DNA of 64,000 nt from Chloroflexota bacterium (GTDB lineage Bacteria > Chloroflexota > Anaerolineae > Anaerolineales > UBA11579), in assembly GCA_009391835.1 (NCBI GenBank), contig QWJF01000006.1, forward strand, positions 1 to 64,000, given 5' to 3'. Below are positions 2,856-57,099 of the stretch, in pieces. The position numbers and the translations under genes are program-made. Within the stretch, counting starts at the first letter, position 1. Each line of letters opens with the position of its first letter. The notes under the pieces were generated by a model. It saw only the letters and a list, made by a program, of their open reading frames with translations, was not told where the DNA came from and did not search any database.

Positions 2856-3725
2856 TTACCAGTTACCATTTTCCTCATACCTAAGCCGTTCCAACAAGCC
2901 CCCGCACACTTGCTTAAACAATTCCTTGTGCGCCTCCGTAAAATGCTCGCGCCAGGCACCGGCTCGCCCGCTCCGGAAAGTCGGCGAGCGCTGCGGGTCT
3001 ATGGATCGCGCCAACATCTCTACGGCCGCCTCCTGCGTGCCGCGATAGCGGAAGCCGCGCTGCTCCGCGTGCGTCAGTATGCGATCGATGGTTGCCCTCG
3101 GTGCTTCAATGAAATCTTCGAAGCGCAGCGCCAACACCTCGTTTCGCTCCAGCCATCCCAGATAAGGCGCAAAGCGTTCCCCAATTCCTGGGAAGGGCTG
3201 TTCTGCTTCTGGCCGCCCAAGGATGCTCACTCGCAGCCGCTCATCAAAGGTTTTGAGCGTATTGACGTAGTAATCATGGTGAACGTGTTGTGCGTTCAGC
3301 TCGCTCACGTAAAAAACGTGCGACACCGCCACGTCCCGCGGATCCCGATATATGAAATAGTTAGCCGTGCCATCCCGACACAATTCAGCCACCAGCGCCG
3401 GAAAGGCATGCACGTGCCCGTAACCGATATCGCCTGGCAGCAAGCGTTGCACATCCTTAACTATCGCATCCACCGGGCGCGGCCTTCCGCTTTCCCCTTC
3501 AAAGGTGAGCACCGCTGGCAACCCGCTTTCCACCACCGGACCCAGTTTTGAAAGCCCGCCCACCACCTGAGTCAGTAAATGTGTGCCAGATTTCGGGAAA
3601 GAATTGAGAAAAAAGCGGGGCATTTCCGCGATTTGGCGAGATTTGCTGACAGTAAATCGCACACGCGCTAGCCCTCTGCGTAGCGCGCGCCGCGCTAAAC
3701 GGGCCTGCATTTTTAGATCAGCCAT
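2856..3725 (-). CDS. PAPS-dependent sulfotransferase (first of a tandem pair)
   Basis: This 289-residue protein has the PF00685-type sulfotransferase signatures. The 5'-phosphosulfate loop is PKSGTHLL at 44-51. The 3'-phosphate motif YRDPRDVAVSH is at 126-136, with the family Arg and Ser. The C-terminal PAPS-binding segment FRSGRAGAW is at about 250-258. No signal peptide or membrane segment is seen, so it is probably cytosolic and acts on glycan intermediates. It directly abuts a paralogue (3726-4586) with the same architecture. PAPS can be supplied by the fused ATP sulfurylase/APS kinase at 15.9-17.6 kb. The acceptor sugar is unknown. Confidence 0.92.
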   Translation of the reverse strand: MADLKMQARLARRALRRGLARVRFTVSKSRQIAEMPRFFLNSFPKSGTHLLTQVVGGLSKLGPVVESGLPAVLTFEGESGRPRPVDAIVKDVQRLLPGDIGYGHVHAFPALVAELCRDGTANYFIYRDPRDVAVSHVFYVSELNAQHVHHDYYVNTLKTFDERLRVSILGRPEAEQPFPGIGERFAPYLGWLERNEVLALRFEDFIEAPRATIDRILTHAEQRGFRYRGTQEAAVEMLARSIDPQRSPTFRSGRAGAWREHFTEAHKELFKQVCGGLLERLRYEENGNW

Positions 3726-4586
3726 CTACCAATCCGCGTCCTGCTCATAGCCTAAGCGCTGCAACAAATCCCCGGTCGCGGATTTGAAGCGCACCTTGTT
3801 CTCTGCAGTAAAATGCTCGCGCCATTCGCCCGGTTGCCCTCGCCGAAAAGTGCCCGATTTACGCGGGGCAATCGCCCCTGCCAACGCTGCCAGCGCCTGG
3901 TCCCGATCCATCTGCAAATCGAAGCCGCGCGCCACAATATGCGCCAATAAACCTTCCAAAGCGACGTCTTGCGCCAGAATCAGGTCTTCGAAGCGCATCG
4001 AGTGAACCGCGGGCTGATCGAGCCAGCCCATATAGTGGGCGTATTTTTCCCGGATCGAGGATAACTCAAAGCCCGGCTCGCCCACCCCTTCGATGGCCGC
4101 GTTCAACCGCGCCGCCATATCCGGCAACCGTTGATAATAAGCATGCATCCCGTGTCCTGGATACAGCTCGGTCGCAAAGAACACGTGCGAAACCAGCACG
4201 TCCCGCGGATCCCGATAGACGAAGAAGGCAGCCACACCATCCCGGCTCAAGGCCTCGATATAAGGACTGCGCGCATGCAAGTAGCCATAGCCTATGTCGC
4301 CGGGCTGCAGTTCTTGCAAGCGGGCCAGCACCTGACGCTCTTCGAGATTTTCGTTTGCCTCAGAGCGGGTGAGCGGCGGCATGCCTGGATCCACAAAGGG
4401 GCCGATGCGGGTCAGGCCCAACAGCACCTGGCTGAGCAGGTGTGAGCCTGATTTGGGCATGGCGTTGCCGATCACCATCGGTGCAGCACCCAACGCCTCC
4501 GCCCTATAGCGCCGCGCCCCTGCCGCCCGCCGCAGTGTCCAGCGCGCTTTCTTGATCGGGCGCTTCACTATTTGCAAAATTTTCAT
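3726..4586 (-). CDS. PAPS-dependent sulfotransferase (second of a tandem pair)
   Basis: This 286-residue sulfotransferase carries PKSGSHLL at 44-51, YRDPRDVLVSH at 124-134 and FRRGQPGEW near the C-terminus. It shares with the next gene a GDIGYG-type segment before the 3'-phosphate motif and a similar basic N-terminus. The pair therefore looks like an old tandem duplication that has diverged, with the acceptor-binding regions differing most. There is no gap between the two genes, so they are surely co-transcribed. The most likely role is sulfation of two different positions of the same polymer. Confidence 0.92.
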   Translation of the reverse strand: MKILQIVKRPIKKARWTLRRAAGARRYRAEALGAAPMVIGNAMPKSGSHLLSQVLLGLTRIGPFVDPGMPPLTRSEANENLEERQVLARLQELQPGDIGYGYLHARSPYIEALSRDGVAAFFVYRDPRDVLVSHVFFATELYPGHGMHAYYQRLPDMAARLNAAIEGVGEPGFELSSIREKYAHYMGWLDQPAVHSMRFEDLILAQDVALEGLLAHIVARGFDLQMDRDQALAALAGAIAPRKSGTFRRGQPGEWREHFTAENKVRFKSATGDLLQRLGYEQDADW

Positions 4587-4589: not shown

Positions 4590-5906
4590 TTATTGGTGCG
4601 GATCGCTGGGCGCGGGCACATCGCTCAAGGAAACCAATTCGTGGCCCAACAAAATTTCCACGACGTCCCAGACAGCTTCGAACGACAAATCCAGTTCATG
4701 GGCAATATCCGCCGGCGTGCGCGTGCCGTCGCAACGATCCATGATCTCGAAGCGGCGCTTGTGCCCTTCGGCATCTTCCTTGTAATCCACCCATATCCCC
4801 GGGTAATCCGACGCAAACACCTCGCCTTTGAAATAGTTGACCACGTAACGGTTGCGGTCAAAGGCTTGCAGCAGGCCGAGCACCAAATCGCGTGAAGCTT
4901 CCAGGCGTTTCTGGCTTACGATGTCTGGCGTGTCTTTGCTGGAGTGATATTCCGGGTAAGGGGAGAAACGCGATTCGGGGGTCTCTGGTTTTTCCACTCG
5001 AGAGAGCGAGAGCATCGTTACGCGTACGCCGGGCGCATTGAATTGGCGTTCATCGTTGTCAATGATCGAGCGAAAGGGGCCGACGTAGGCACCCGGGGCA
5101 AGGCCTTGAAGGGCAGCGGTCAGAGCGCGATCCGCTTGGCTCTCCGGCAGGAAGGAGGTTTGCAGGGCGTGCGGCGCATCGTTGCCCAGCATCTCCAGGA
5201 AGAGCCCGCCGTGCATTTTTGGGATCAATTTTTCGTGCTGGCTGAGATAGGCCACCGAGCCGATTGTCTCCGGGAAAAGCAGCAAGCGATAAGAAAAATG
5301 CGGTTTAGGGCCTTCCATCAATGCGCGCATTGCATCCAGCCCAACCACCACACCGCTCAAATCATCGTTGACCATCGCTGGATGGTCAAGGTGGGCGGCG
5401 AGTACGAAGCATTCGTCCACTTCGCCCTTAACCAGCACTTCGCCGATCTTCAATTCGCCCGGGCTGAATTCAGCGCGGATCACCACCCGGTAGCGAGCTT
5501 CGCTAAGCTGGTGGCGCAGATCCCGGGTGCAGCATAAACCCCAATCGCGCTGATAATACTTGAAGACAAAGGGGATGGCATCCAGCAACTTTGGATGGAC
5601 ATGCAGGTACTCGATTAATTCCTCGTGGCTGACCTCACCCTCGAAAGGCAGTGAATATGAGACCACATGCAGCGGGTGATCAGCGTAATCAAGAATGCGC
5701 TCCCCATCCAGTGTTTCCAGATAGGCCTCATGGCAGGTCCACTTTTCGGGCACCGTCCAGGTCCATACCGGGGTGCCGGAGGGGACTTTGTGAATGGTCA
5801 TCGGGATTTCTTCGGCGAGGCGCGCCAGGGCGCGATCATAATCGTCGGAGACGATATCGCGCTTGAGGAACCAGAGTTCCTCGATAAGCTGCGTCATAGT
5901 CGCCAT
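4590..5906 (-). CDS. DUF4910-type protein with M28-like aminopeptidase domain and C-terminal winged helix
   Basis: The 438-residue protein resembles the COG4310/DUF4910 group of glycan-cluster proteins with an M28-like zinc peptidase fold. The metal motif is visible: HLDH at 172-175 followed by NDDLSG at 180-185, with a glutamate in FPETIG near 213 and a late histidine in HSSKD near 345. The last 70 residues (CDGTRTPADIAHELDL onward) look like a small winged-helix domain. No signal peptide is present. Reports of activity for this group are not known to me. Here it sits downstream of an aminoacyl-carrier ligase, a carrier protein and two acyltransferases, which suggests chemistry on an aminoacyl-sugar or aminoacyl thioester; this is inference. 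Confidence 0.82.
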   Translation of the reverse strand: MATMTQLIEELWFLKRDIVSDDYDRALARLAEEIPMTIHKVPSGTPVWTWTVPEKWTCHEAYLETLDGERILDYADHPLHVVSYSLPFEGEVSHEELIEYLHVHPKLLDAIPFVFKYYQRDWGLCCTRDLRHQLSEARYRVVIRAEFSPGELKIGEVLVKGEVDECFVLAAHLDHPAMVNDDLSGVVVGLDAMRALMEGPKPHFSYRLLLFPETIGSVAYLSQHEKLIPKMHGGLFLEMLGNDAPHALQTSFLPESQADRALTAALQGLAPGAYVGPFRSIIDNDERQFNAPGVRVTMLSLSRVEKPETPESRFSPYPEYHSSKDTPDIVSQKRLEASRDLVLGLLQAFDRNRYVVNYFKGEVFASDYPGIWVDYKEDAEGHKRRFEIMDRCDGTRTPADIAHELDLSFEAVWDVVEILLGHELVSLSDVPAPSDPHQ

Positions 5907-5913
5907 TGCCGCC

Positions 5914-6693
5914 CTATTTGCCCACCAGCACTTCGGATTTGTTCGCTACCAGAGCCCATATGTTGCGCGCCAACAGCGAATCCGCTGCAGCCACAAAATC
6001 ACGTAGCGAGCAGACCGAGAGCGCCCCAAAATTAACTTGAACTGTTTGCCATTGACCCTTGGCTTCCAGAGCGCCTTGGATCGGAGCAAGCGCCAACTTA
6101 GGATCACTCTCTAAATCGCGCACGAACATGCGGTAGCTGCGCGTTTGCCTGGTGCCATCCACTTTCACGCGGCCGCTAAACTCCTTCCAATAACGATACG
6201 GCACCGCAGCGCGCTGCTCACTGTAGTGCACGATGGAAGCGGCCTGGATATCGGCGCCGAGCAGCAGCAACTTGAAATCGAGGGCCAGCATGCGATCAAA
6301 GGCTGAGCCGTCGTCGAAGGCGGAGGGCGTGTCCAGAGCGGCGAGTTCGGCGGCACGCGCGCCGAGGATGGCCAGCGATTGCATCGGGTGCGTGGTGCGC
6401 AGTGCTGTTGGTTGCTGGCGCACGAACTCAGATAAGATGCCCATTCCTTCAGAGGGTGTGGCAGCCGGATCATAATCCTCGCCGCGGGCTAAGGCGAAAT
6501 TAAAGGTAGGAACAGCAATCGTTCCCGTAGGGCCGAGTACGGCTTGCAATGCTTTCAGATAAGTAGCCTCGCCCTGTTCAGGCTTGCCCAAGAATTGCAG
6601 TGCGGAATGCACCAGCAAACCATCGCCAGCTCGAACACCGACTACGCGCAGGGCTACTTCCAATTGAGATTGCGTGAGCTTGGGGATGGCCAT
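5914..6693 (-). CDS. AAC(3)-family N-acetyltransferase
   Basis: The 259-residue protein matches the aminoglycoside 3-N-acetyltransferase family (PF02522). Typical segments are VHSALQFLG near 28-36, THPMQSLAILG at 101-111 and HYSEQR at 156-161, the last holding the family His. The family transfers acyl groups from CoA to amino groups. Homologues in glycan clusters act on amino sugars and not on antibiotics, so resistance should not be assumed. The gene lies 2 bases after the GNAT gene and in the same block as the carrier protein and aminoacyl ligase, so an aminoacyl or acyl transfer to an amino sugar is a reasonable guess. Confidence 0.88.
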   Translation of the reverse strand: MAIPKLTQSQLEVALRVVGVRAGDGLLVHSALQFLGKPEQGEATYLKALQAVLGPTGTIAVPTFNFALARGEDYDPAATPSEGMGILSEFVRQQPTALRTTHPMQSLAILGARAAELAALDTPSAFDDGSAFDRMLALDFKLLLLGADIQAASIVHYSEQRAAVPYRYWKEFSGRVKVDGTRQTRSYRMFVRDLESDPKLALAPIQGALEAKGQWQTVQVNFGALSVCSLRDFVAAADSLLARNIWALVANKSEVLVGK

Positions 6694-6695
6694 TG

Positions 6696-7172
6696 CTAGC
6701 CCTCCAATACTTTGCGCACCAGGGTGAGGTCAAGGGCAAAACCCTGCTTGCGCCAAAAGTCAAGGCCCTGATCATTGCCCGCCTGCACCTGCACTTCCAC
6801 CGAGTGGACGCCCAGTTCAGCAAATTTCTGCATGGCCGCATCCACCAGTTGCCGGCCCGCGCCCTGGCCGCGCAGTTCATCGTCCACATAAAGATCACTG
6901 ATTTCGCCCGCCTGCACCCCACCCAAGTAAGCGGGACTCAGCTTCAGCCGCGCCAAAAGAAAGGCGCGCGGGCCATTATCGGTTTCGGCCAGCCAGACAA
7001 AACTAAAGCGCCCCAGTGTGCGCTGGAAAGAGGCAAGCCATTGACCGGGCGCATCTGTGACTTCCGGAAAGGCTAGACCGAGGCTGCGATGAAAACGATC
7101 AAGGGCGGCCCACAACTCAGCCAGGGCGGGCAAATCCTCGTCTTCAGCAGGACGAATATGGATCTTATTCAT
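6696..7172 (-). CDS. GNAT-family N-acyltransferase
   Basis: The protein is 158 residues from the ATG at 7172. It has the GNAT core LYVDDELRGQGAGRQLV at 94-110, including the RGQGAG pyrophosphate-binding loop, and a later N133...FWRKQGF motif. GNAT enzymes transfer an acyl group, usually from acyl-CoA and sometimes from an acyl carrier protein, to an amine. The start overlaps the end of the aminoacyl ligase gene by 8 bases, implying translational coupling. The tight link to a ligase plus carrier suggests that it may use an aminoacyl-carrier thioester; alternatively it is an ordinary sugar N-acetyltransferase. Confidence 0.88.
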   Translation of the reverse strand: MNKIHIRPAEDEDLPALAELWAALDRFHRSLGLAFPEVTDAPGQWLASFQRTLGRFSFVWLAETDNGPRAFLLARLKLSPAYLGGVQAGEISDLYVDDELRGQGAGRQLVDAAMQKFAELGVHSVEVQVQAGNDQGLDFWRKQGFALDLTLVRKVLEG

Positions 7173-8370
7173 TGAACGCCTCGCGCACAGGCGTGGGCCA
7201 GCGCTGGGGGTCCAGGCCAAACTGGGCCAGGAAGGCAAAGGCCATGCGCTCCAGGCCAAAGGCTACGCAGCCAGTGTGTACTGGCTTGCCATCCGGCAGG
7301 GTGATGTCCAAATTGCGGCCGAAGAAATCCTGGTGGTAGTTGTAAGAGCCGACTGCCAAAGTGCTGTTCTTGAAAGGCAATTGGGCACGAAGCTCGTACT
7401 TTAGCTGGAACGCGTTTTGGAAAGCGGCCTGGCGGCGAAATTCACCGACAAAGAAGGGATCGTTGGCGCTTTCCACCCGATAGGCCAACCCGAGGTGCTC
7501 AAAGGCTTTCTCCAAGTATTGGCGAGCGCGCTCACGATTCTCCAACACAAAATCGGCTGGGCCAACGAAAATAATCTCGCGCATGGTGAAATTCCACATG
7601 CGTTCCAGCGTGGTCATGTTGCTGGATTCGTAGCGGAAACAATTGCCCACGGCGGTTGCAACTAGTTTGCCATCCGGCAAGGGCTTATCTGCCAAGGCGA
7701 AATATAGATGGTAGCAGACGGCTGGCGAGAGCAACGCCTGGATGCGTGAAAAGGATTCGGGGGCGGTATTCAGTCCGTTGGGCGCTTCATAGGCGGCGTG
7801 TTGGGAGAACCCATTGATGACGTCCAGGTCTGGGCGCAGGTGAGTGGCGAAGGTGAGGGAGTGTGGGAAGGCGCGGAAATATTGCACGCGACCTAGCTTC
7901 TCGGCAGAGATTAGCGTCGGAAAACGGTGCGGCTTGGCGCCAAATTCGTCGGCCAGCGCCAAAAATTGGCGCTCGAAGACCTCAATCAGGCGCGTAAGCA
8001 GGGGGCCAAAACTGAAGATACCGGTGTGTTCTTCGCTTACCTCACCGCTGGACAGCAGCTCCGGCATGGGGTCTTGGTCGAACGTAGTCGGGCGGACGAG
8101 ATGATCTTCGAGGATTTCGACCTTGGGCAGCACGGCGCCTTTGGCCATCTCTTCGACGACGCTCTGCACTTTGGCCTCCAGAGCCTGCTGTTCGGCACTC
8201 TCGAGTTTGCCAGTTAGTTCCAATTGGATGCGTTGCCCATCCGGGGAGATGCTGGCGGCCGCAATGTGTTCGTCCACATAGGCGAGCTTGGATTGCACCT
8301 GCCCCACCAAATGGGCGGGGATATCGAGGGCCGACTTAATCTCAAAGGTCTCAGGCATTTTGCAGTCCAT
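7165..8370 (-). CDS. Class II aminoacyl-tRNA synthetase-like amino acid:carrier protein ligase
   Basis: This 401-residue protein has a class II synthetase catalytic core: motif 2 as FRYE (245-248) and motif 3 as GLER (372-375). It resembles the amino acid:[carrier protein] ligases, truncated seryl-tRNA-synthetase relatives that load Gly or Ala on phosphopantetheine. A plausible zinc site C219-E265-C368 has nearly the spacing I recall for that family. The long seryl-type coiled-coil tRNA arm is absent; instead there is an extra N-terminal region of about 100 residues. The carrier protein gene lies directly upstream and overlaps it by 20 bases. An alternative ATG is at 8358. The amino acid cannot be read from the sequence. 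Confidence 0.85.
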   Translation of the reverse strand: MDCKMPETFEIKSALDIPAHLVGQVQSKLAYVDEHIAAASISPDGQRIQLELTGKLESAEQQALEAKVQSVVEEMAKGAVLPKVEILEDHLVRPTTFDQDPMPELLSSGEVSEEHTGIFSFGPLLTRLIEVFERQFLALADEFGAKPHRFPTLISAEKLGRVQYFRAFPHSLTFATHLRPDLDVINGFSQHAAYEAPNGLNTAPESFSRIQALLSPAVCYHLYFALADKPLPDGKLVATAVGNCFRYESSNMTTLERMWNFTMREIIFVGPADFVLENRERARQYLEKAFEHLGLAYRVESANDPFFVGEFRRQAAFQNAFQLKYELRAQLPFKNSTLAVGSYNYHQDFFGRNLDITLPDGKPVHTGCVAFGLERMAFAFLAQFGLDPQRWPTPVREAFNE

Positions 8371-8596
8371 CTACATGCGTGAGGATCGCGGGCACGCTGG
8401 TCAGCTGGCTAATGGTCTCGGCGCTGATTTGTACACCAAAGGCCGACTCGAGGGCCAGCATCAAATCCATATGGCCCATCGAATCCCACTTGGGCAAATC
8501 GCCAAACTGAGCCTCGGCGTTGATTTCAGCGGAATCCACGTCAAAGACTTCCGCGAGCGTGCTGCGAACTTGGTCAAAAAGGGCGTTTTCACTCAT
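8351..8596 (-). CDS. Acyl/peptidyl carrier protein
   Basis: The 81-residue protein has the four-helix carrier-protein pattern, with the phosphopantetheine attachment serine S39 in WDSMGHMDLM. The motif DSM replaces the commoner DSL. Length and acidic character are typical of stand-alone carrier proteins. A ribosome-binding site (AAGG) lies about 8 bases before the ATG. It overlaps the downstream ligase gene by 20 bases, so the two are translationally coupled and likely partners. A phosphopantetheinyl transferase is not visible in the window and would have to come from elsewhere. No ketosynthase or AMP-ligase accompanies it, arguing against fatty acid or polyketide synthesis. Confidence 0.94.
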   Translation of the reverse strand: MSENALFDQVRSTLAEVFDVDSAEINAEAQFGDLPKWDSMGHMDLMLALESAFGVQISAETISQLTSVPAILTHVDGLQNA

Positions 8597-8614: not shown

Positions 8615-10210
8615 TTATACCAGAAAAGCATCCCTGTCCACAATACCGCGGTGGACAGCCGACAGAGCCGGCGAATTCTCTGGGAGGAGCGCAGACAGTG
8701 GAAAGGCCTTGAGGCCAACATAGCCCATGCGCGGCTGAGCCTGTAGGAAGTGATCAAAAGGCAGCGAGGTGCGGAAAAGCTGGAAATAGAGCAAGCGGCG
8801 GGCCGCAAGGACGAACTCCTGGGGCTGCGCGACGTTTGCGGCGGCCAGGAAGGCGCGCGCCTGCTTCACAAAGGCCTTGCGATCTTTGGGTAGGTAGACT
8901 GTCGGGTATTGGGTGTAGCGGGCCGCGCCGCCTATGAGAACGGGTTTGCCCAAAATGGATGCCTCGAGACCAATCGAAGAGTTGTAGACCAGGACGAAAT
9001 GGGCGCGCTGGATAAGCGCATAGGATGAAAGATATTCGGTGGGCCCGACAAATACGACATTGGGCCACTGGTCAACGCCGCGCGCTCTCAACCAATCCTG
9101 AACGCTCTCACGGGTGTGCTTGCGGGTGCCTTCGCGAATCTCATCCGGGTGAGCACGAATAACAAAGAGCGTATCGGGGTGCGTTTTGATCAAGTCCACG
9201 ACTTCGGCTAGCCAGGCGAACATATCCGGGAAAAGGGTGTTGGCGTGAATCTGGCTGGTATCGAAAATCACGTTGGTGAAGACAGGCACGATGCGCTCAA
9301 ATCCGGTGGCCTTAGCTAGAAAGGCCTCGTCCAGCGCTTGCATGTGCGGCCAAAACTGGATGCCGGCCATCGTAAAGCGACCCTGGAAACGGCCTTCAAG
9401 GTATTGGTTCAATTGTGCGTCCTGGGCGTCGTCCAGTTGGAAATCAGTGGGGATCTCCATTGGGTAGGCGGTGGCCTGGCCTTCGGTGAAGAAGGCAGAA
9501 TTGGGTTGGATGCCGACCTCGTGGGTGACGACGCGGATGCCACGCGCCTGCGCTGCGCGGCGAGCCATCGCCTCAGGATACATGAGCCCATTGAAGAGCA
9601 CCACAGTTTGGGGCTGGTGCTCCTCGAGGAAGGCTTCAAATTCGCGTGCTACGTTGAAGGCGGAAAGGATATATTCACGCAGCATAAAGCGCATGTCTTG
9701 GTTATCCGGCAATGTGTGCCTGCGTAAGGCCCAGCGCAGGGAGGGGAGCACAATTTCGCCAAGCGGAACACTCTCATGACTAAAGGATTGTAGAGTAGGC
9801 ACATCCAAGCCCTGCAGAGCGGCTTTGAGTTCGTCTGATTTCTCAATGCTGAACCAGTGCGTTTGGGCCCCGGCATATAAACGCTCAGACTGTTGGATGC
9901 AACTGTGGCAAGGTGGCTCCACGGAGGCGTCATCCGGGTCGGTGCCCAGCACGCAGCGGGTCATCCCGGCGCGGCAGACGAAATGGACGACAGGGACGCC
10001 GGCCATGCGCAGGCTCCAGGCGGACAACTGGGAAAAGGCGGCGTTGAGGCTGAGATTGCGTAGTCTCGCTGAGGCATTGAAGAAGGCGACCGGGCGGCGC
10101 GAGCGATCCGCGACGGCTTGGCGGGCAACGCCGGCAGCCAGGCGCACAATGCGGGCGCGTTGGATCAGCGCGGCGGGCAAGCGGCTCAGGCGTAGGAGGA
10201 ATTTAGACAT
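8615..10210 (-). CDS. Capsule-polysaccharide-type GT-B transferase with four-cysteine N-terminal motif
   Basis: The 531-residue protein has a C-terminal GT-B half similar to capsule biosynthesis (KpsS/LipB, CDP-glycerol transferase-like) proteins. RAHPDE occurs at 352-357 and YNSSIGLEASILGKPV at about 409-424, the donor-binding part. The N-terminal half carries C79, C86, C101 and C104 (C-X6-C-X14-C-X2-C), which looks like a metal site. No membrane segment is seen. It probably transfers a sugar, possibly a Kdo or nonulosonic residue, on the cytosolic side; it follows the NeuB and CMP-nonulosonate synthetase genes, which would supply such a donor. Three other genes in the window have related C-terminal halves. 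Confidence 0.75.
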   Translation of the reverse strand: MSKFLLRLSRLPAALIQRARIVRLAAGVARQAVADRSRRPVAFFNASARLRNLSLNAAFSQLSAWSLRMAGVPVVHFVCRAGMTRCVLGTDPDDASVEPPCHSCIQQSERLYAGAQTHWFSIEKSDELKAALQGLDVPTLQSFSHESVPLGEIVLPSLRWALRRHTLPDNQDMRFMLREYILSAFNVAREFEAFLEEHQPQTVVLFNGLMYPEAMARRAAQARGIRVVTHEVGIQPNSAFFTEGQATAYPMEIPTDFQLDDAQDAQLNQYLEGRFQGRFTMAGIQFWPHMQALDEAFLAKATGFERIVPVFTNVIFDTSQIHANTLFPDMFAWLAEVVDLIKTHPDTLFVIRAHPDEIREGTRKHTRESVQDWLRARGVDQWPNVVFVGPTEYLSSYALIQRAHFVLVYNSSIGLEASILGKPVLIGGAARYTQYPTVYLPKDRKAFVKQARAFLAAANVAQPQEFVLAARRLLYFQLFRTSLPFDHFLQAQPRMGYVGLKAFPLSALLPENSPALSAVHRGIVDRDAFLV

Positions 10211-10252: not shown

Positions 10253-12163
10253 TTAGTCGGTGGCGCGAGCCTGGATCTCGGCCTGAGCCTTGAAATAAGC
10301 CTCGGAGAGGCGGTTGAGGGCAATCACAAAGCCTTCACCGCTGCGCTGGTGGCCGCGCCAAATCTCAGGCACCATCGTGCCGTGGTAATTCTGCATTACT
10401 TTGAAGAAATGCACCCAATCTATGGTGCCTTCGTTGATTTGCATACCCTCGCCATCCAGCCCGGCGGCATCCGAAAGATGCAGATGGGAGATATAGGGCA
10501 GGAGCACAGCTACCTGCTCGTAGAAATCCTTGTGGGCCCAATTGCAATAGAGCTTGTGGTGCGAGGTGTCGTAGCACATTTTCAGACCGCGCGGCTCGAG
10601 AAAATCGCGCACCTCGTAAGCATCCATCATGGCGTTGGTGAGCCATTGGCCACCGAAGTACCAGGGATGCGAGGGTAGATTTTCGACCAGCAGCTCAACG
10701 CCGGTGGCATCAATGTCATGGAGCGACTTATCCAGATTGTCGTAGAGGCGTTTGGGATTTTCGATGTGATGATCAAGGCTGGCTGCGCCGGGATGGACGA
10801 CCACCTTCGGGGTTCCCACAAAGGATTCGGCCAAACTCCGGGTGACATCAATAGAACGTTGAAGCAGATCCACCGAGGCCTGGCGATGCTGCTCGTCGAA
10901 GACACAGAGATCAACCAGGTGGTTGCCCCAGAATTCGGGGGCATGAACTACGAGGCCGATCTCGTGCTTGCCACCCGTATATTTTTCATCGAGGTCTTTA
11001 TCTGTGAAGTGGAATTCCAGGATCTTGGGTGCATAGGTCAGCATGCTCTCGTAATCGTTGTAGCGCACCACGAAGCCCCATTCCATCGGCAGGGTGCTGC
11101 CCACATCCAGCGTGACCTGCTCGCCGAGATCAATATCCAGGAACATTTCGTCCACTTCGAGATCGCGGACGGCGGCACGGCCAAGCAGATCATTCTTGCG
11201 TTGGGGGGAAAGCCCCTGGCCAGGGCCCTTGACGGCGATCATGTCTTCGGTAAGAGTTTCACCGGATTTGATATCGCGGGCGGCCACCAGGCTCTTGGCG
11301 AGAACTTCACGATTGAGGATCTCGCCGCGCGACATAAATTTCTCTTCGCCTGTGCCGAGGGCCGATTCGACATGGCGAATGTCTCGCACCAGCTTGCCAA
11401 AACCCTGGGGCTCGAGGCTGGAAGCATGGTCAGGGCCATCCATCGTGCGGTCGAGGGTGATATGGCGTTCGATGATACAGGCGCCAAGGGCAGCGGCCAC
11501 GGTGGAAATGGCGATGCCGCGCTCATGGCCGGAATAGCCCACGGGGACGTCAAACTCGCGCAGCTGCTCCATGAAACGCAGATTGATATCTTCGAATGAA
11601 GCTGGGTAGGCGCTGTTGCAGTGCAACAGGGCAAATTCGACGTTGCGTTTCTTGAGGAAGCTGACCGTCTGGTTGACCTCTTCCATGCGGGACATGCCCG
11701 TAGACACAATGAGGGGCTTGCGCTTGGCAGCCAGGTGCTCGATGAGGGGCAGGTTGATGAGATCGGCGGAGGCCACTTTGTAGGCGGGAACGCCGAGGGT
11801 TTCAATTAAATCGGCACTCTCGGGATCAAATGCAGAGCAGAGGAAGGTAATGCCCTTGTCCCGGCAATAGGCCACAAGTTTATGATACTGGTCGTCGGAA
11901 AGCTCTACTTTCTGGAGAATGGGGAGTAGATAGTTGAGGTTCTTCTCACCGGCGTTAGCGTTCTCGAGAAATTTGGCGGGGTAAATGTGCTTGAGGCTGC
12001 GCTTCTGAAATTTGACCGCATCGGCGCCGGTGCCCAGGGATGCGTCAATGAGCTCGATAGCCATTTCGAAGATGCCATTGTGGTTGACGCCAATCTCGGC
12101 GATGACATAAGCGGGGTGGCCATCGCCAACCAGGCGGTCGCCAATTTTTAGTTCACGGATCAT
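10253..12163 (-). CDS. NeuB-type nonulosonate synthase fused to a sugar-isomerase-like TIM barrel
   Basis: This 636-residue fusion has three parts. Residues 1-280 are the NeuB PEP-condensing barrel (IAEIGVNHNG at 21-30, YSGHERG at 210-216, GPDHASSLEP at 243-252). Residues 285-345 are the SAF/antifreeze-like domain. Residues 360-636 are a second TIM barrel of the xylose isomerase/AP endonuclease 2 type (VHPGAASLDHH, CYDTSHHKLYCN, HLHLSDAAG). NeuB enzymes condense PEP with a 6-carbon N-acyl hexosamine to give a nonulosonic acid. The second domain may make or epimerise the substrate. It overlaps the upstream CMP-synthetase/phosphatase gene by ATGA. A second, unfused NeuB lies at 25-26 kb. Confidence 0.92.
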   Translation of the reverse strand: MIRELKIGDRLVGDGHPAYVIAEIGVNHNGIFEMAIELIDASLGTGADAVKFQKRSLKHIYPAKFLENANAGEKNLNYLLPILQKVELSDDQYHKLVAYCRDKGITFLCSAFDPESADLIETLGVPAYKVASADLINLPLIEHLAAKRKPLIVSTGMSRMEEVNQTVSFLKKRNVEFALLHCNSAYPASFEDINLRFMEQLREFDVPVGYSGHERGIAISTVAAALGACIIERHITLDRTMDGPDHASSLEPQGFGKLVRDIRHVESALGTGEEKFMSRGEILNREVLAKSLVAARDIKSGETLTEDMIAVKGPGQGLSPQRKNDLLGRAAVRDLEVDEMFLDIDLGEQVTLDVGSTLPMEWGFVVRYNDYESMLTYAPKILEFHFTDKDLDEKYTGGKHEIGLVVHAPEFWGNHLVDLCVFDEQHRQASVDLLQRSIDVTRSLAESFVGTPKVVVHPGAASLDHHIENPKRLYDNLDKSLHDIDATGVELLVENLPSHPWYFGGQWLTNAMMDAYEVRDFLEPRGLKMCYDTSHHKLYCNWAHKDFYEQVAVLLPYISHLHLSDAAGLDGEGMQINEGTIDWVHFFKVMQNYHGTMVPEIWRGHQRSGEGFVIALNRLSEAYFKAQAEIQARATD

Positions 12164-13410
12164 GCAGCGCTCCTTGAGTGCGTTGCCGTACTGTTTCCAG
12201 ATAGTATCAAATCGCAGAGCTCGCGGACGGCGCCGCGCCCGCCGGGGCGTGTGAGGCGCAGATCAGCGGCGCGCAGCACTTCAGGATGGGCATCGGCCAC
12301 CACGGCTGCGCATGCCACCAGCTCGAAACAGGGCAGGTCTTTGACATCGTGGCCAGCGAAGACTACCTGTTCGGTAGGGATTTTTAATTCTTTGAGCAGG
12401 GCGCTTAGTGCAGACGCTTTATCGTCGACGCCCTGCTGGAAGGGGATGCCCAATTTCTGGCAGCGAGCGGCGACCACCGAGTTACGTTCCTTGGAGAGCA
12501 CGTAGACCTGGATGCCAGCCGTCTTGAGCAGGCCGATACCATAGCCTTCGCCGCGGTGGGCGGCGACCTGTTCACGCCCTTCGGCATCCACCCACACGCG
12601 ATCATCGGTTAGAGTGCCGTCAAAATCGAGGACGAGCAGGCGCACGTCGGCCGGCAACGGGCGCGGGGCGCGGCTGGGCCAGACAATATCGAGCTGCTCG
12701 GACGTGACGTAGGCCGCGGCGCGGTGCAAATCGTTGAGCGTGTCAATATCCACCGTGTAGCTGGGATCAATCAAGAGCGGATAAATGCTGGAGCCGCTCA
12801 TGCTGCCCTTGTCGAGGATGGTGGCGGCGCGGATGGCATCAATGTGGCCGGTTTGCCAGTAAATATCGGGGAGCGCCTGTCGGGGGGCATTGTGGGATTC
12901 GGGAATGCCCTCCACGCGGAGCAAGGGCTGCATGGGTGCGCCTTCTTTGAGCTGCCACATTTTGTGCGGGCTCTGGCCGGCGAGCACCACGCCGCGCACC
13001 GAATCGGCCTCGGGATGGTCCTGGAGCAAATCCAGGGCGCGGTCAATCAGGCCGGGTGGGCGGAGCGGCGACGTGGGGCGCAACTGGATAACCACATTGG
13101 GATGATAGTTCTCGTTTTCGGCCAGCCAGGCGAGCGCATGTTGGAAGACGGGCAAGTCGATGGTGTCGTCCTGTGCGTGCTCGGCGGGGCGCATGAAGGG
13201 CAGCTCGGCGCCATATTGGCGAGCGACAGCGGCGATCTCTTCGCTATCCGTAGACACGATGGTGCGAGTGACGCCCTCGGCCTGCAAAGCGGCGGCAATG
13301 CTGTAAGCGATCAATGGGTAGCCAACGAAGGGCTGGATGTTCTTGCCCGGAATGGTTTTCGAGCCGCCGCGCGCCGGGATGATGGCGAGAACTTCGGGTT
13401 GCTTAGCCAT
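12160..13410 (-). CDS. neuA: CMP-nonulosonate (NeuA-type) synthetase fused to KdsC-type HAD phosphatase
   Basis: The protein is 416 residues from the ATG at 13410; the open frame extends upstream but that part is the shadow of the preceding gene. Residues 1-240 are a CMP-sialate-type synthetase with IIPARGGSKTIPGKN at 9-23 and an acidic DID at 221-223. Residues 255-405 are a HAD phosphatase of the KdsC type with DFDGTLTDD at 262-270 and GHDVKDLP at 353-360. NeuA-HAD fusions are known; the HAD part would remove the 9-phosphate of the NeuB product. This fits a pathway in which a 6-phosphate sugar is condensed by the adjacent NeuB fusion. Confidence 0.92.
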   Translation of the reverse strand: MAKQPEVLAIIPARGGSKTIPGKNIQPFVGYPLIAYSIAAALQAEGVTRTIVSTDSEEIAAVARQYGAELPFMRPAEHAQDDTIDLPVFQHALAWLAENENYHPNVVIQLRPTSPLRPPGLIDRALDLLQDHPEADSVRGVVLAGQSPHKMWQLKEGAPMQPLLRVEGIPESHNAPRQALPDIYWQTGHIDAIRAATILDKGSMSGSSIYPLLIDPSYTVDIDTLNDLHRAAAYVTSEQLDIVWPSRAPRPLPADVRLLVLDFDGTLTDDRVWVDAEGREQVAAHRGEGYGIGLLKTAGIQVYVLSKERNSVVAARCQKLGIPFQQGVDDKASALSALLKELKIPTEQVVFAGHDVKDLPCFELVACAAVVADAHPEVLRAADLRLTRPGGRGAVRELCDLILSGNSTATHSRSAA

Positions 13411-15037
13411 TGGGCTGCTCCGCATCCAAGCTGGGACCGACATAGCGATAGACGTGCCAGCCGTAGGGTTCGAGGACCTCAACGAACTGGTAGTTAGCCT
13501 GGATATAGACATAGAGCGGGCGCACCACTTCGATGACTTTATCCAGATTGCGCACGCCAATCTCTGGATAGGTGACGCGTTTAATGGTGGTGTCGATAAT
13601 GACGGGATGGCTACGCTCAATATCCTGAATGTAGCCGTCAATCATCTCAGGTGTGGCATAGCCGGGGGTGAAGAAATGATCCTGAAAAATATGCCGTGAT
13701 GGCACGTCATGGCCGCTAAGCCAATTAATGGCAAGTAGCTTGCCCCAGAACAAAATGTCTTCATTGGGGCCGACATGCTTGGTGATGTAATCCAGGGCTG
13801 GGCCAAAGCGGGAGCCGGTAACATCCACGGGAGGCAAGCCGCGGGCGGCCACGGAAGCCGAAATGGTTTCCTTTGCGGGGGGCAGGATGCCGAGCAGGGG
13901 AACCAAGCTGATCGCCATCACCATGCTAAGCGTGAGCACCTTGGCAAATTGTCCGCGAGTACCGGGCTTTCGAGCGACCTCGCCTTGCTTAAGAATCACA
14001 TAGAGCAAGTAGGCCGCGGCTAGGCCGAATACGGGGAGCCAGGACATAAAGTAATGGGGGAAACCGCGCCCGGAAAGACTGGTGAGCAATAACTCCAGCG
14101 GCAGGGCGATAAACAACACCGCTAGCAGCGCAGGGTGTTGAGCCTTATCACTGTGCTCTAGCCTGCCGACTAGCGCCAGACCACTGAGCAGCCAACCCGC
14201 CAGTGCAATGCTTTGCAGGAGAGGTAGGCGCCTGAGGCCGAAGATCACGCTAGCATGACGATCAGCTGCGGTGGTATCCGAATAGATTAGGTTGTAATAG
14301 AAGGAGGCGTCCCATAGGCCGGGAAGGGCATTCTGCGCCCGGAAGGCAAGTATTACGAGCAGGCTGAGGCTGAGAAAGCCAGCCAGGATTGCGGCGATGC
14401 GCTTCCAGGCGAGGCGATCTTTTGTGACCAGCGCCTCCCAAAGCAGAAACAAGCCGATTGCCATCGAGATGCCGATCATGTTCGCGCGATCCCAAAATGC
14501 GAGGGCGGCGACCAAGCCAAGCGCAAATTCCAGCCAGCGATGCTCCGCGCGGCGCGCCGCCATAAAGAGCGCCAGCATGCCAAATTGCATGGGCAGGGCA
14601 TATTCTTCGGTGAGGTTGCCGCCATCCAGCACGGTGGGCAGCGCGGTGAGCCAGGCGACCGAGCCAAAGAGGGCCGGCCAGGCCCCAAAGGCCTTGGCGA
14701 TCAACTGGTAGCCAATCAGGGCAGCCGCGCCGACAGCCAATACCTCAAGCAGCCAGACGCCCCAGCGTGATCCGCCAGCGAGCGCGAGGCCAAGGGCGTT
14801 CACATAGAAAATCATAGGGCCCTTGTGGTCCCAGACATCGTTGTAGAGTGTGGCGCCGTCATTGATTTTTTGACCGGCGTAGAGGAAAATGCCCGAATCC
14901 GTGCCGGGATTGGGTTGGCGATGGGGCGAGACATCCATAAGAATGAAGAGGGCCAGAATAGCCAGAACCAGCTGCGGGAGCCAGGCACGCAGCCGTAGGT
15001 TGCCGATAGCCCTGATTTTATTTTTGGCGACTGCCAT
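13403..15037 (-). CDS. Polytopic GT-C-type glycosyltransferase (PMT/ArnT-like)
   Basis: This protein of about 544 residues has roughly a dozen hydrophobic segments and a C-terminal soluble part. Near the N-terminus, after the first membrane span, an acidic loop (GTDSGIFLYAGQKI, then VWDHKGP) matches the catalytic-loop pattern of lipid-linked-sugar GT-C enzymes. It should use a polyprenyl-linked sugar on the outer face of the membrane. The best start is ATG 15037 with a GGTGAG ribosome-binding site; an in-frame TTG lies 12 bases upstream. It overlaps the CMP-synthetase gene by 8 bases. Substrate unknown. Confidence 0.82.
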   Translation of the reverse strand: MAVAKNKIRAIGNLRLRAWLPQLVLAILALFILMDVSPHRQPNPGTDSGIFLYAGQKINDGATLYNDVWDHKGPMIFYVNALGLALAGGSRWGVWLLEVLAVGAAALIGYQLIAKAFGAWPALFGSVAWLTALPTVLDGGNLTEEYALPMQFGMLALFMAARRAEHRWLEFALGLVAALAFWDRANMIGISMAIGLFLLWEALVTKDRLAWKRIAAILAGFLSLSLLVILAFRAQNALPGLWDASFYYNLIYSDTTAADRHASVIFGLRRLPLLQSIALAGWLLSGLALVGRLEHSDKAQHPALLAVLFIALPLELLLTSLSGRGFPHYFMSWLPVFGLAAAYLLYVILKQGEVARKPGTRGQFAKVLTLSMVMAISLVPLLGILPPAKETISASVAARGLPPVDVTGSRFGPALDYITKHVGPNEDILFWGKLLAINWLSGHDVPSRHIFQDHFFTPGYATPEMIDGYIQDIERSHPVIIDTTIKRVTYPEIGVRNLDKVIEVVRPLYVYIQANYQFVEVLEPYGWHVYRYVGPSLDAEQPNG

Positions 15038-15881: not shown

Positions 15882-17737
<1,856 letters not shown>

Positions 17738-21288: not shown

Positions 21289-22216
21289 TGCGGTAAAGGA
21301 GGGTAAAGATGCGGTCATAGATCCATTGCAGTAGCTTGCGTAATGGGCCGCGCAGGCGGCGGACACGGCGCGGCTTGGCTGGAGAAAGGCTCCCATCGGG
21401 TAGCGTGTTGCCCATATGCTCGACGTAGCACTCAGGCGTGCTGAGGCGCAGATAGCCTTTGGAGTTAATCAATTCGTCCAGTAGGCGGACGCGGCCCATC
21501 GGGCGCTCGGCGGGGATAGGCAAGATGGCTTCGAGGGCGGCTTTGGGGGCCGCAAATTGAAAGTGCGCTGCGCCGATAAAATAGCGCGCTTTGCCCTTGC
21601 TGATCTGGATGGTAGGGTTGAAGTCGTAGAAAGCGCGGGCGGTGGGTTCATCGTCGCCCAGGGTGCGAGCGTGACGCCAGAATTCCTGCCAGGTAATCAG
21701 CGGGCCGCGTTCCAGCTTGACATTCTTTTGGGCGTTGGCCCAATCAATCGTGGCGCTGGAAAATTTCTCGGGGGTCAGAATGGGTAGCCCGGAAACCATG
21801 CCTGCCTGCGGGAAAGCTTTGAGCGCGGCCAAATGGGCTGGCAGCCAACCGGGGTGGAAGAACACGTCACTATCGGCGTAGACCACCACGTTGCCAGGCG
21901 CGGCGGCCAAGGCGATGTTCCAGGCGCCGGCTTTACCGAAATTACGTTCGGAGAGCGTGAGGTATTGGATGCGGCCGGCGGCCTGTTCCTCCAGCAAGTA
22001 AGCGCGCACCTCTGCGCAGGAGCCATTGTCGAAAAGCATCAGATCGTAATCGCCATCCGTGTTGGCGGCGATGCTGCCCAGGCAGCGCTTGAGAATTTCA
22101 AGGCTTTGGGCGTAGTAGCCCGCCAGGAAGGGGATGTAGCTGATGACTACCACGGTAACCGGGGCAGGCGGCGCGATGCTTTCCACTGATTTAACAGGAT
22201 TCTGACCGACGCGCAT
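21281..22216 (-). CDS. Family 2 glycosyltransferase
   Basis: The 311-residue GT-A enzyme has the nucleotide-binding strand TVVVISYIPF near residue 21, FDNGSC at 62-67 and the metal-binding DSD motif in YADSDVFF (D115, D117). A proline-rich N-terminal extension precedes the catalytic domain, and the C-terminus is very basic (RRVRRLRGPLRK), possibly for membrane association. It shares ATGA with the upstream gene. The sugar donor is not predictable. Confidence 0.9.
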   Translation of the reverse strand: MRVGQNPVKSVESIAPPAPVTVVVISYIPFLAGYYAQSLEILKRCLGSIAANTDGDYDLMLFDNGSCAEVRAYLLEEQAAGRIQYLTLSERNFGKAGAWNIALAAAPGNVVVYADSDVFFHPGWLPAHLAALKAFPQAGMVSGLPILTPEKFSSATIDWANAQKNVKLERGPLITWQEFWRHARTLGDDEPTARAFYDFNPTIQISKGKARYFIGAAHFQFAAPKAALEAILPIPAERPMGRVRLLDELINSKGYLRLSTPECYVEHMGNTLPDGSLSPAKPRRVRRLRGPLRKLLQWIYDRIFTLLYRND

Positions 22217-23124
22217 CAGCTCTCCTCTACTCTTAGCAAGTGGCGACGCAGGCGGCGCAAGCGGCGCAAAAGTGCCCAGCGCCAGCCTGTGCCAGCACGC
22301 TCATCGGGTTGCAGCCAACGTTCGACCCGGCGAACACTGCGTGCCAAATTTGGGCGCTTGGCACGCATTTTCCCGGCGCGCAGCTCCAGATTGACGTCCA
22401 ATAGCGTGTAAATATGGCGCATCCCACCAGCCAGGCGGGTATTCTCATCAGTTTCGGCGACGCGATAATGGGCGCGGCCCTGGGGCAAATGAGCGTAGTC
22501 ATGGGTCTGGTGAATGATGGGTAGGGCAGACGTGGCATCCACAGCCAGCCAGGGTTGGGTGACGGCTTCGTGAATCATCCAGTTGTCCCAACCGGCGCGG
22601 CCAATGGCGAAATCGGGGACGCGGTTATAAAGGTGGCGTGGGAAGATGAAATAATCGCTACCGCCCTGGGGGTGTAGGAGTCCGGCACGCTGGATTTCGG
22701 CTTGCAGTTGACCCACCCAATTGCCGTTGAAATCAAGCGAGTCCTTGACCTGTAGATCGTAGCGCTGGCCCATCAGCACGAATTGCTCAGCTTGGCCGCG
22801 GACTTGCTCCAGGACGGGCAGCGTTTCGGGCAGCAGGATGATATCGGCGTTCACAACCGCGAGCACAGGCGCCTCGCTGGAGGCTCGGGCGGCTGCAAGC
22901 ATGGCGCTGACCAACGGCGTGCCCTGCGCATTGCGGGCCACATCTTTAATATGCTGGACACCAAGTTCTTTGGCGGCTTTGGCTATCCCCGGTTCGTCGC
23001 CCTGCAACCACACCTCAACCTGATCGCCGAGAGCGGCCCAGGAGTGGATGGCGTTGCGCTGAATGGTGTTGATGTGCGCATCCGTGAAAGGCTTGGGGGC
23101 AGTGAAAATGGCAAGGGTGCTCAT
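22216..23124 (-). CDS. Putative GT-A-type glycosyltransferase, family unassigned
   Basis: This 302-residue protein begins with a short strand (LAIFTAPKPF) and has VVNADIILLPE near residues 90-100, a DXD-like NAD motif of nucleotide-sugar-binding proteins. The middle (GGSDYFIFPRHLY, RAGWDNWMIHEA) looks like an acceptor-binding and catalytic region. The C-terminus is strongly basic (RRLRRLRRHLLR). I do not recognise a named family, but the pattern and neighbourhood between GT2 and SpsF-like genes favour a glycosyltransferase. It overlaps its upstream neighbour by ATGA. Confidence 0.65.
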   Translation of the reverse strand: MSTLAIFTAPKPFTDAHINTIQRNAIHSWAALGDQVEVWLQGDEPGIAKAAKELGVQHIKDVARNAQGTPLVSAMLAAARASSEAPVLAVVNADIILLPETLPVLEQVRGQAEQFVLMGQRYDLQVKDSLDFNGNWVGQLQAEIQRAGLLHPQGGSDYFIFPRHLYNRVPDFAIGRAGWDNWMIHEAVTQPWLAVDATSALPIIHQTHDYAHLPQGRAHYRVAETDENTRLAGGMRHIYTLLDVNLELRAGKMRAKRPNLARSVRRVERWLQPDERAGTGWRWALLRRLRRLRRHLLRVEES

Positions 23125-27992: not shown

Positions 27993-28048
27993 ATTCACTC
28001 CTAGTTCACACCAAGCCCATATGCCGAATTAGGTAAAATGGCCGAATC

Positions 28049-28078
28049 ATTGTAAGCCGACTGAGAGAGGCCATGCAA
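28049..28078 (-). promoter_or_regulatory. Putative sigma70-type promoter for the pseB operon
   Basis: On the minus strand, TTGCAT (28073-28078) and TACAAT (28049-28054) are separated by 18 bases. The -35 falls in the first codons of the divergent plus-strand gene. Between this and the ATG lies a direct repeat GCCGAAT at 28023 and 28041, 18 bases apart, which could bind a regulator. For the plus-strand gene only a weak TAAAAT (28034-28039) without a well-spaced -35 is seen. Confidence 0.55.
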
Positions 28079-29701
28079 ACTGCGCGTAAATTTCAAATTG
28101 CTTTTATTGTTCTGGTCGCGGTTTTTCTGATCTATGCCGGGACCTATATTTTTCGCAGCAGTTTCGTCGTCGAGGGCGAACGATATTTTGTGTTGAACGA
28201 CGATGCCATGATCTCGATGCGCTACGCCCACAATCTGGTGCGCGGAGAGGGGGCGGTGTGGAACGCCGGCGAGCGCGTGGAGGGCTACAGCAACCCGGTG
28301 TGGATGCTCTATATGGCCTTCTGGCATCTGCTGCCCATCTCGTTGTCCAAGATGAGCCTGCCGATCCAGATTACCGGCGCGCTGCTGCTGGCAACCAATT
28401 TGGTGTTCGCGCGTCGTATCGCCCTTCTGCTCACTAAAAATGAATGGATCGCGCTGGGAGCGGCGACGATGACCGCCTTCTATGGCCCCTTGAATAACTG
28501 GGGGCTGCTGGGCATGGAGGTCAGCGCGCTGGTGCTGATGGTGAGTATCGCCACCTGGTGGACGCTGAAGGCCGCCGGGGACGGACGTTTCGACTACCGA
28601 CCCTATATCCTGTTGGCAGTGGGCACGCTGGTGCGCATGGATATGGCCGTGCCGTTTTTGACCCTGCTGGGGATCAATCTTTGGCTGGATAAGGCGCATC
28701 GCAGCCAGCACCTCAAATTTGGTTTTGGCTGGCTGGCGGCCGGGCTCGGCCTGCAGACGATCCTGCGGCTGGCCTACTATGGCGAGTGGCTGCCCAACAC
28801 GTATTACCTCAAAGTGACGGGCATGCCGCTGCTGGTGCGCGTCGGCAATGGGCTGATCGCGCTGTTCAAACTGGTGTGGAACACGGGCTGGCTGCTGGCA
28901 CTTTTGCCCTTCAGCGCACTGCTCTACCGACGCGAGCGTGCCACGCTGACTCTGCTGGCACTTTTCGCCGATCAGGTAGCCTACAGCGTCTACGTGGGCG
29001 GCGACGCCTGGGAGCACAAAGGCGGGGCCAACCGCTATATCTCGTTGGCGATGCCGCTTTTCTTTATTTTGCTGACCACCGCGGCCAGCACCTTGATTGA
29101 GAAGCTGGCCACGCTGAGGGATGGCAAGCGGCTCCCTGCGCAAAACCTCAAGCACGGGCTGCTGATCGCCTTCGTGCTGCTCACGCTCGTGCAGGTCAAC
29201 AGCACACTTTCTACCGATCTTTCGATCACCTGCTGTCCGCTGCGCATTTCGCTGTTCACCAGTTCGGGCTACCGCAGCAACATCGATTTCACGGTGGCCA
29301 ACGAGGAATACGTGCGCATTGCGCGCGCGTTGAACCACATGAGCACACCTGAGGCGAGCATCGCGGTGGTGGCGGCGGGCGCCATCCCCTATTTCAGCGA
29401 CTTGCCGGCCATTGATCTGCTTGGCAAGAGCGACGCGGTGATTGCCCGCACCGAGAGCCACCTGCCCCAGGCGCCACTGGCACGCCTGACCAGCTTCCGG
29501 CCGGGGCACAGCAAGTGGGATTACAGCTACTCGCTGGGCGTGCTGCACCCGGATATCGTCGTGCAGTTGTGGGAGGATGCCGACCAGGCTCAAGAATTCC
29601 TCCACGAATACGTGACAGTGGAAATCGACGGATTCCAGTTCACGGCACGGCAGGATTCACCGCAGATTCTTTGGGACCAGGTAACCATCATCGACGAATA
29701 A
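28073..29701 (+). CDS. Polytopic GT-C-type glycosyltransferase (AftB/PMT-like)
   Basis: The 542-residue membrane protein has an N-terminal span, then an acidic loop, VLNDDAMISMRYAHNL (41-54) and GERVEGYSNPVW, which is the hallmark of one GT-C group that includes AftB-like arabinosyltransferases. About ten more membrane segments and a soluble C-terminal domain follow. It should use a polyprenyl-phosphate sugar outside the membrane. It is the only plus-strand gene here, with GAGAGAGG as ribosome-binding site, and faces the methyltransferase gene tail to tail with 4 bases between the stop codons. The substrate is unknown. Confidence 0.85.
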   Translation: MQTARKFQIAFIVLVAVFLIYAGTYIFRSSFVVEGERYFVLNDDAMISMRYAHNLVRGEGAVWNAGERVEGYSNPVWMLYMAFWHLLPISLSKMSLPIQITGALLLATNLVFARRIALLLTKNEWIALGAATMTAFYGPLNNWGLLGMEVSALVLMVSIATWWTLKAAGDGRFDYRPYILLAVGTLVRMDMAVPFLTLLGINLWLDKAHRSQHLKFGFGWLAAGLGLQTILRLAYYGEWLPNTYYLKVTGMPLLVRVGNGLIALFKLVWNTGWLLALLPFSALLYRRERATLTLLALFADQVAYSVYVGGDAWEHKGGANRYISLAMPLFFILLTTAASTLIEKLATLRDGKRLPAQNLKHGLLIAFVLLTLVQVNSTLSTDLSITCCPLRISLFTSSGYRSNIDFTVANEEYVRIARALNHMSTPEASIAVVAAGAIPYFSDLPAIDLLGKSDAVIARTESHLPQAPLARLTSFRPGHSKWDYSYSLGVLHPDIVVQLWEDADQAQEFLHEYVTVEIDGFQFTARQDSPQILWDQVTIIDE

Positions 29702-36762: not shown

Positions 36763-36788
36763 TATAACCCGTGAAATAAAAAGGTCAA
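36761..36788 (-). promoter_or_regulatory. Strong sigma70-type promoter of the regulator/exporter operon
   Basis: On the minus strand TTGACC (36783-36788) and TATAAT (36761-36766) are 16 bases apart, close to consensus. The -35 lies inside the last codons of the upstream membrane protein gene. The predicted leader is about 25 bases. It is the best promoter match I found in the window. Confidence 0.8.
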
Positions 36789-38308: not shown

Positions 38309-38321
38309 CAGGAGCCCGCGA

Positions 38322-38327
38322 ATTATA
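38322..38327 (-). promoter_or_regulatory. Possible internal -10 element before a GT-C-like gene
   Basis: The 39-base gap between two membrane protein genes contains TATAAT on the minus strand, 13 bases before the ATG at 38308. No good -35 is seen. A leaderless or very short leader transcript would result. Confidence 0.3.
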
Positions 38328-38347
38328 GCCTGAGCGAGGATGCGCGC

Positions 38348-54931: not shown

Positions 54932-54988
54932 ATGAATGTCCCAATTCTGAACGGAGGCGAGATTTCAACGGCCTTTCCATTTTTGACA

Positions 54989-56101: not shown

Positions 56102-56105
56102 CCGC

Positions 56106-57083: not shown

Positions 57084-57099
57084 GAAGCGAAGCCTTCAT

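Follow-up and report, generated by a model that had tools for sequence, protein, structure and literature searches.

Amino acid:[carrier protein] ligases are tRNA-synthetase look-alikes that, according to a 2010 study, reportedly charge carrier proteins, and to our knowledge the natural use of the charged carriers has mostly remained unassigned since then. Here we describe a five-gene cassette that, if our reading of it is true, provides a natural job for such ligases. The cassette spans positions 4590 to 8596 on the minus strand of a 64,000-nucleotide stretch of contig QWJF01000006.1 (the window), whose host is an Anaerolineales bacterium of the Chloroflexota, and it encodes an acyl carrier protein (ACP), a class II aminoacyl-tRNA synthetase (aaRS)-like ligase, a GNAT, an AAC(3)-type acyltransferase, and an M28-like DUF4910 protein. 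We place at roughly 0.5 the probability that it serves aminoacyl decoration of a nonulosonate-containing surface glycan.

Several described systems share parts of this arrangement. Bll0957-type ligases have the class II aaRS-like core, the zinc ligands, and an adjacent stand-alone carrier, but the cassette ligase carries an additional N-terminal domain of ∼100 aa, scores below the cut-off of the NF005479 family, and belongs to a fixed glycan cassette. The Dlt system (DltA, DltB, DltC, and DltD) likewise adenylates an amino acid, loads it onto a carrier, and moves it to a surface polymer; however, no DltB was found among the annotated genes of the window, its ligase is not an ANL adenylase, and the bond that we propose is an amide rather than an ester. 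On the acceptor side, the locus of CA_C2195 in Clostridium acetobutylicum combines a DUF4910/DUF2172/HTH_47 protein with NeuB, an ACP, and aminosugar N-acetyltransferases, although its aminoacyl ligase is of the ATP-grasp type and no fixed five-gene order has been described. CA_C2195 itself has Ser191 and Pro225 at the peptidase catalytic positions, and a role in sugar modification was proposed for this family with a non-peptidase site (Das et al. 2014, PMC4000134).

The closest described functional case is Cj1295 of Campylobacter jejuni, an M28-like protein with an aminopeptidase fold that has homologues in NeuB clusters and lies next to the AAC(3) gene Cj1296/7. By knockout and complementation, formation of 5-N-di-O-methylglyceroyl-pseudaminate was shown to depend on Cj1295, which was suggested to remove the 5-N-acetyl group (Hitchen et al., PMC3068675). 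The window matches this type of modification in having a DUF4910 gene within a nonulosonate cluster, a likeness of gene context, and its function may carry over by analogy. It differs from the C. jejuni case, in which a derivative of glyceric acid is attached, no aaRS-like ligase has been reported, and the AAC(3) frame is off in the strains tested. An earlier reading of this DNA from its letters (the sequence-only reading) had held that no system with this set was described; this is right for the set, but Cj1295 is a close functional precedent. A search of a limited literature library returned no paper tying aaRS-like ligases to glycan clusters. The families are thus known, but as far as our searches show, their fixed combination, the swappable genes for loading and capping, and the link to DltB-like proteins have not been described.

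The cassette genes, in their order of reading, are as follows.

8351..8596, minus strand: stand-alone ACP, Ser39 in a DSM motif (PF00550, 2.2e-8)
7165..8370, minus strand: class II aaRS-like amino acid:[carrier protein] ligase with a ∼100-aa domain N-terminal to the catalytic core (NF005479, 4.7e-51)
6696..7178, minus strand: GNAT, proposed to N-acetylate the amino acid on the carrier (PF00583, 3.9e-14)
5914..6693, minus strand: AAC(3)-family acyltransferase, proposed to pass an (N-acyl)aminoacyl group to a sugar amine (PF02522, 3.6e-41)
4590..5906, minus strand: DUF4910/DUF2172 M28-like protein, proposed to act in N-acyl release or exchange on the sugar (PF16254, 3.8e-63; DUF2172, 2.1e-27)

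Adjacent genes overlap by no more than 20 bp or are separated by no more than 7 bp. The ligase probably starts at 8358, where a conserved MPE... start lies, rather than at 8370, and the GNAT probably at the ATG at 7178. The five coupled genes named in the sequence-only reading were therefore found where it had placed them, with each family assignment backed by Pfam or NCBIfam.

Counting the window's own genome, 28 of 101 related genomes and 13 of 57 genera had a ligase homologue, and the named relatives that carry one are Anaerolineales of the Chloroflexota. Neighbors were counted in Chloroflexota loci with enough flanking sequence. The ACP adjoins the ligase in 38/39 loci, AAC(3) accompanies it in 36/36, and the M28-like DUF4910 protein in 30/31; the two misses (L083 and L076) lie on short contigs, and the ligase match of L083 is truncated. 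These counts refute a chance adjacency of the five genes. The genome comparison that the sequence-only reading had recommended thus gave no sign of random association, with the GNAT slot as the variable part. Common to most loci are the upstream glycosyltransferase-like gene, NeuB, a CMP-sugar synthetase, a 3'-phosphoadenosine 5'-phosphosulfate synthase, sulfotransferases, and a GT2 glycosyltransferase. By its presence across dozens of Anaerolineales, the cassette names likely downstream partners of charged carriers. AAC(3) and the M28-like gene are separated in L060 and L063 by a methyltransferase gene on the opposite strand. Unrelated-looking insertions were also seen in or beside the cassette, namely, AAA_21 plus RloB (L066, 3649-5581), AAA_14/DUF4143 (L078, 16557-17789), and an adenylate cyclase/TPR protein (L084, 12766-15555).

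The assignment of the ligase rests on family scores, fold, and conserved positions. It matched the NCBIfam amino acid--[ACP] ligase NF005479 with 173.6 bits, below the 357-bit equivalog cut-off, and its best PDB match by sequence was Bradyrhizobium Bll0957 (2.5e-40; 3mey/4h2s family), with archaeal-type seryl-tRNA synthetase (SerRS) next. When the predicted structure was compared with Foldseek, archaeal-type SerRS ranked ahead of the Bll0957-type structures, with 3pzc and 4h2s both matched. Bearing on the lack of a tRNA-binding domain that marks this ligase class, the cassette protein has the N-terminal extension, and its whole model also aligns to archaeal-type SerRS. The core of the model is usable (mean pLDDT, 79.5) and supports an aaRS fold and nothing further. 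Sequence and fold thus agree on the class II aaRS-like core. Residues C219, E265, and C368 are invariant and align with the corresponding residues of Bll0957, which we take to be its Cys/Glu/Cys zinc ligands, and the GCVAFG segment also matches Bll0957; a small amino acid is therefore the likely substrate, "small" being as fine a reading as these residues give. In the carrier, D38 and S39 are kept in at least 95% of 27 orthologues, and the host genome encodes an ACPS-type phosphopantetheinyl transferase. The carrier with S39 and the synthetase-like ligase of the sequence-only reading thus held up, and we consider it likely, from family and context, that the ligase loads the carrier with an amino acid. 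The possibility that the ligase is the cell's tRNA synthetase was rejected because the genome carries a separate SerRS (448.6 bits, contig C11).

Between the ligase and AAC(3) lies a variable position of the cassette. A single GNAT occupies it in most Chloroflexota loci, two are present in L053, L056, and L090, and none in L060, L063, L065, L073, and L075; a GNAT open reading frame (ORF) is present in L091. In L089, the slot is filled by a formyltransferase (Formyl_trans_N and _C), the best NCBIfam matches of which, both under cut-off, are the PRK06988 formyltransferase and Met-tRNA formyltransferase. Such variation is consistent with a capping step that adds acetyl, formyl, or no group. GNAT orthologues follow the ligase in Acidobacteria as well and score 116 to 136 bits against the Chloroflexota GNAT model. 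For comparison, a related model of 19 rows, three of them acidobacterial, gave ∼30 bits for the highest-scoring unrelated GNAT encoded by the host. Neither AAC(3) nor DUF4910 was found near the acidobacterial ligase and GNAT. Because the GNAT follows the ligase into a context free of AAC(3), it would act on the aminoacyl group and go with the loader rather than with the sugar, and we consider it reasonably likely that it caps the carrier-bound aminoacyl group. The two acyltransferases of different families in the sequence-only reading were both confirmed but are not equivalent, since the GNAT travels with the ligase and AAC(3) with DUF4910.

The AAC(3) protein matches FrbF/AAC(3) structures, and H29, H102, H156, and E159 are invariant in 41 sequences. 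Its score of 104.6 bits against the resistance equivalog NF033082 is far under the cut-off of 270, and this, together with the fixed biosynthetic context, led us to reject a role as an aminoglycoside resistance gene. AAC(3) is probably the transferase of the cassette. The DUF4910 protein matches 3k9t (CA_C2195) in the PDB (5.4e-56); PF16254 (DUF4910) and PF09940 (DUF2172) are over cut-off, and the HTH_47 tail is weak (0.013). Its domains, together with the NeuB and glycosyltransferase context, place it in the DUF4910/DUF2172 sugar-modification group. A DER motif is invariant in 43 DUF4910 sequences, and the single-metal set H175/D181/H321 is kept in the cassette proteins, with the M28 catalytic Asp and Glu replaced by A177 and P212 in the window protein. 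The sequence-only reading had suggested a hydrolase, editor, or transferase role for this protein. Action as a peptidase or thioester editor is unlikely, since the catalytic residues are replaced as in CA_C2195 and homologues occur in sugar clusters that lack an aminoacyl carrier. A deacylase or an acyl exchanger is a plausible, if tentative, assignment.

AAC(3) and DUF4910 also occur as a pair apart from the ligase. Of 151 Chloroflexota genomes, 18 gave a DUF4910 match, 15 of these over cut-off. Nine clusters were fetched from one other Anaerolineales family, and the two genes are neighbors in each. In eight of the nine, the exception being the shortest contig, they lie within PseB, RmlD-like, NeuB, glycosyltransferase, and cytidylyltransferase clusters homologous to 21 to 33 kb of the window. 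The fetched stretches showed no ligase, and nothing in them matched the DegT aminotransferase of the window; thus, the only obvious nitrogen there is one that is already acetylated. Agrobacterium and Tritonibacter have the pair among pseudaminate genes. The AAC(3) of Maritalea and of Sinorhizobium RAC02 forms a fusion with an FkbH/HAD loader domain and lies beside DUF4910 and a short-chain dehydrogenase/reductase-type protein with an ACP-like match. Fusions of this kind near DUF4910 were located at L150 5943-8402 and L154 5760-8318.

The best reading of these patterns is that an interchangeable loader (ligase and carrier) and capper (GNAT or formyltransferase) feed an acyl-exchange pair made up of AAC(3) and DUF4910. 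In the proposed mechanism, the ligase would adenylate a small amino acid, most likely Gly or Ala, and load it onto the phosphopantetheine of the carrier. The GNAT would then N-acetylate the carrier-bound aminoacyl group, a step taken by the formyltransferase or absent in variants. The AAC(3)-type enzyme would take the capped aminoacyl group off the carrier thioester and join it to a sugar amine, for which the simplest candidate is the C5 (or C7) nitrogen of the nonulosonate or of a precursor. DUF4910 would free that amine by removing the resident N-acetyl group or would catalyze the exchange itself. Loading and transfer are suggested by family and context, capping by co-occurrence and replacement, and the DUF4910 step by the genetic precedent of Cj1295 and by fold. 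The transfer of an amino acid from a carrier to an amino sugar, as put forward in the sequence-only reading, fits the comparative evidence and is in part supported. The mechanism predicts as product a nonulosonate amine that bears an N-capped amino acid, and it lends itself to reconstitution in vitro on a small scale. Bacterial polysaccharides are known to contain N-acetylglycyl and N-acetylalanyl amino sugars (PMC3210612), and the mechanism proposes a route to groups of this type. The DUF4910 and AAC(3)-like genes in flagellin-glycan loci would then also share an acyl-carrier logic with the cassette.

Several observations weigh against this mechanism. The nearest NeuB, with its KdsC-like phosphatase, resembles 9-phosphate-type pathways, so that a different sugar might carry the modified amine. 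A sugar amine could also be the substrate of the GNAT or the formyltransferase. In rhizobial exopolysaccharide clusters, DUF4910 occurs without AAC(3) and without nonulosonate genes. Two residues of M28 hydrolases, the general base and an Asp, are missing from DUF4910, and other residues would have to serve in deacylation (PMC4000134). Both flagellin variants examined in C. jejuni 11168 had Cj1296/7 out of frame, and AAC(3) may be dispensable for that modification. Since the C. jejuni modification nevertheless occurs, DUF4910 might itself be the acyltransferase or transacylase, with AAC(3) as an accessory or setting a second N-acyl group and with the ligase, carrier, and GNAT supplying the donor; the conserved metal site and DER motif agree with this. 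The constancy of AAC(3) in the cassettes and its fusions to a loader in two alphaproteobacteria argue otherwise, and we regard this alternative as unlikely.

An equally doubtful alternative takes the GNAT and AAC(3) as ordinary N-acetyltransferases of a diamino nonulosonate, with the ligase and carrier serving a separate modification such as an O-linked amino acid ester. Both families do include coenzyme A-dependent sugar or antibiotic N-acetyltransferases, and the same ligase has DltB-like O-acyl partners in other phyla; however, no MBOAT was found among the annotated genes of the window, the acidobacterial GNAT follows the ligase where AAC(3) and DUF4910 are missing, and several cassettes have a formyltransferase or nothing in the GNAT slot. 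We consider it very improbable that the product is a small secreted aminoacyl metabolite or peptide made by nonribosomal peptide synthetase (NRPS)-like chemistry: most Anaerolineales loci embed the cassette in nonulosonate, sulfotransferase, and glycosyltransferase genes, and the annotated genes include no condensation or NRPS domain, even though ligase relatives do occur in NRPS/polyketide synthase (PKS) clusters, e.g., in Streptomyces.

Outside the Chloroflexota, the ligase and carrier were found with other partners. The gene order is MBOAT, ACP, ligase, and GNAT in Acidobacteria L092 and L096, while L095 has an MBOAT homologue, the ligase, and the GNAT, with the carrier overlapping in the gene call. 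In Rhodospirillaceae L085 and L087, the order is ACP, SGNH/AlgX-like protein, MBOAT, and ligase. About two dozen Paenibacillus loci (L100, 9584-13383, and the homologous L101-L127) have an ACP, the ligase, an unknown protein, and an MBOAT. The four MBOATs scanned matched DltB only (TIGR04091), at 57 to 182 bits and under the cut-off of 375. Ligase and carrier thus adjoin a DltB-like MBOAT in all three groups, a further likeness to Dlt, and an aaRS-like ligase in this position points to a possible Dlt-like system without DltA. In the ligase tree, the Rhodospirillaceae rows were placed among Chloroflexota rows, which suggests a switch of partners, an uncertain one owing to long branches. We tentatively propose that the ligase-carrier pair is a general loader, parallel to Dlt, that serves either amide formation through AAC(3) and DUF4910 (nonulosonates, with acetyl or formyl caps) or ester formation through a DltB-like MBOAT (polymers), which would explain some orphan ligases. 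In Myxococcota L097 and L098 (5997-11170), rpoD (sigma-70) and a conserved gene of ∼617 aa immediately precede a ligase homologue, and no carrier protein was found near the latter. On a plasmid of Streptomyces sp. NBC_00557 (L153, 6563-9200), a ligase homologue lies by an ACP and an acyl-CoA dehydrogenase in an NRPS/PKS-like cluster with a condensation domain.

The genes around the cassette in the window are listed here.

12160..13641, minus strand: CMP-sugar synthetase (PseF-like) fused to a KdsC-like phosphatase (TIGR03584, 2.4e-44; PRK09484, 4.9e-38)
10253..12163, minus strand: NeuB (nonulosonate synthase) fused to a xylose isomerase-like TIM barrel (PF03102, 7.2e-84; PF01261, 3.6e-27)
8615..10210, minus strand: capsule-type glycosyltransferase-like protein, immediately upstream of the ACP gene here and in most loci (PF05159, weak; NF046086, 8.6e-10)
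3726..4586, minus strand: sulfotransferase, next gene downstream of the DUF4910 gene (PF00685, 2.7e-7)
2856..3725, minus strand: second sulfotransferase (PF00685, 2.9e-11)
15882-17645: bifunctional ATP sulfurylase/adenosine 5'-phosphosulfate kinase

With the NeuB fusion and the CMP-sugar synthetase upstream and two sulfotransferases downstream, the cassette indeed sits between nonulosonate genes and sulfotransferases, as had been read from the sequence. Long ORFs of the glycan operon at 36785-42992, 28001-29605, and 22216-23124 had no Pfam match at the thresholds applied. The G+C content is 0.46 to 0.52 at positions 54000-62000 of the window compared to ∼0.59 elsewhere, and this block may have been acquired.

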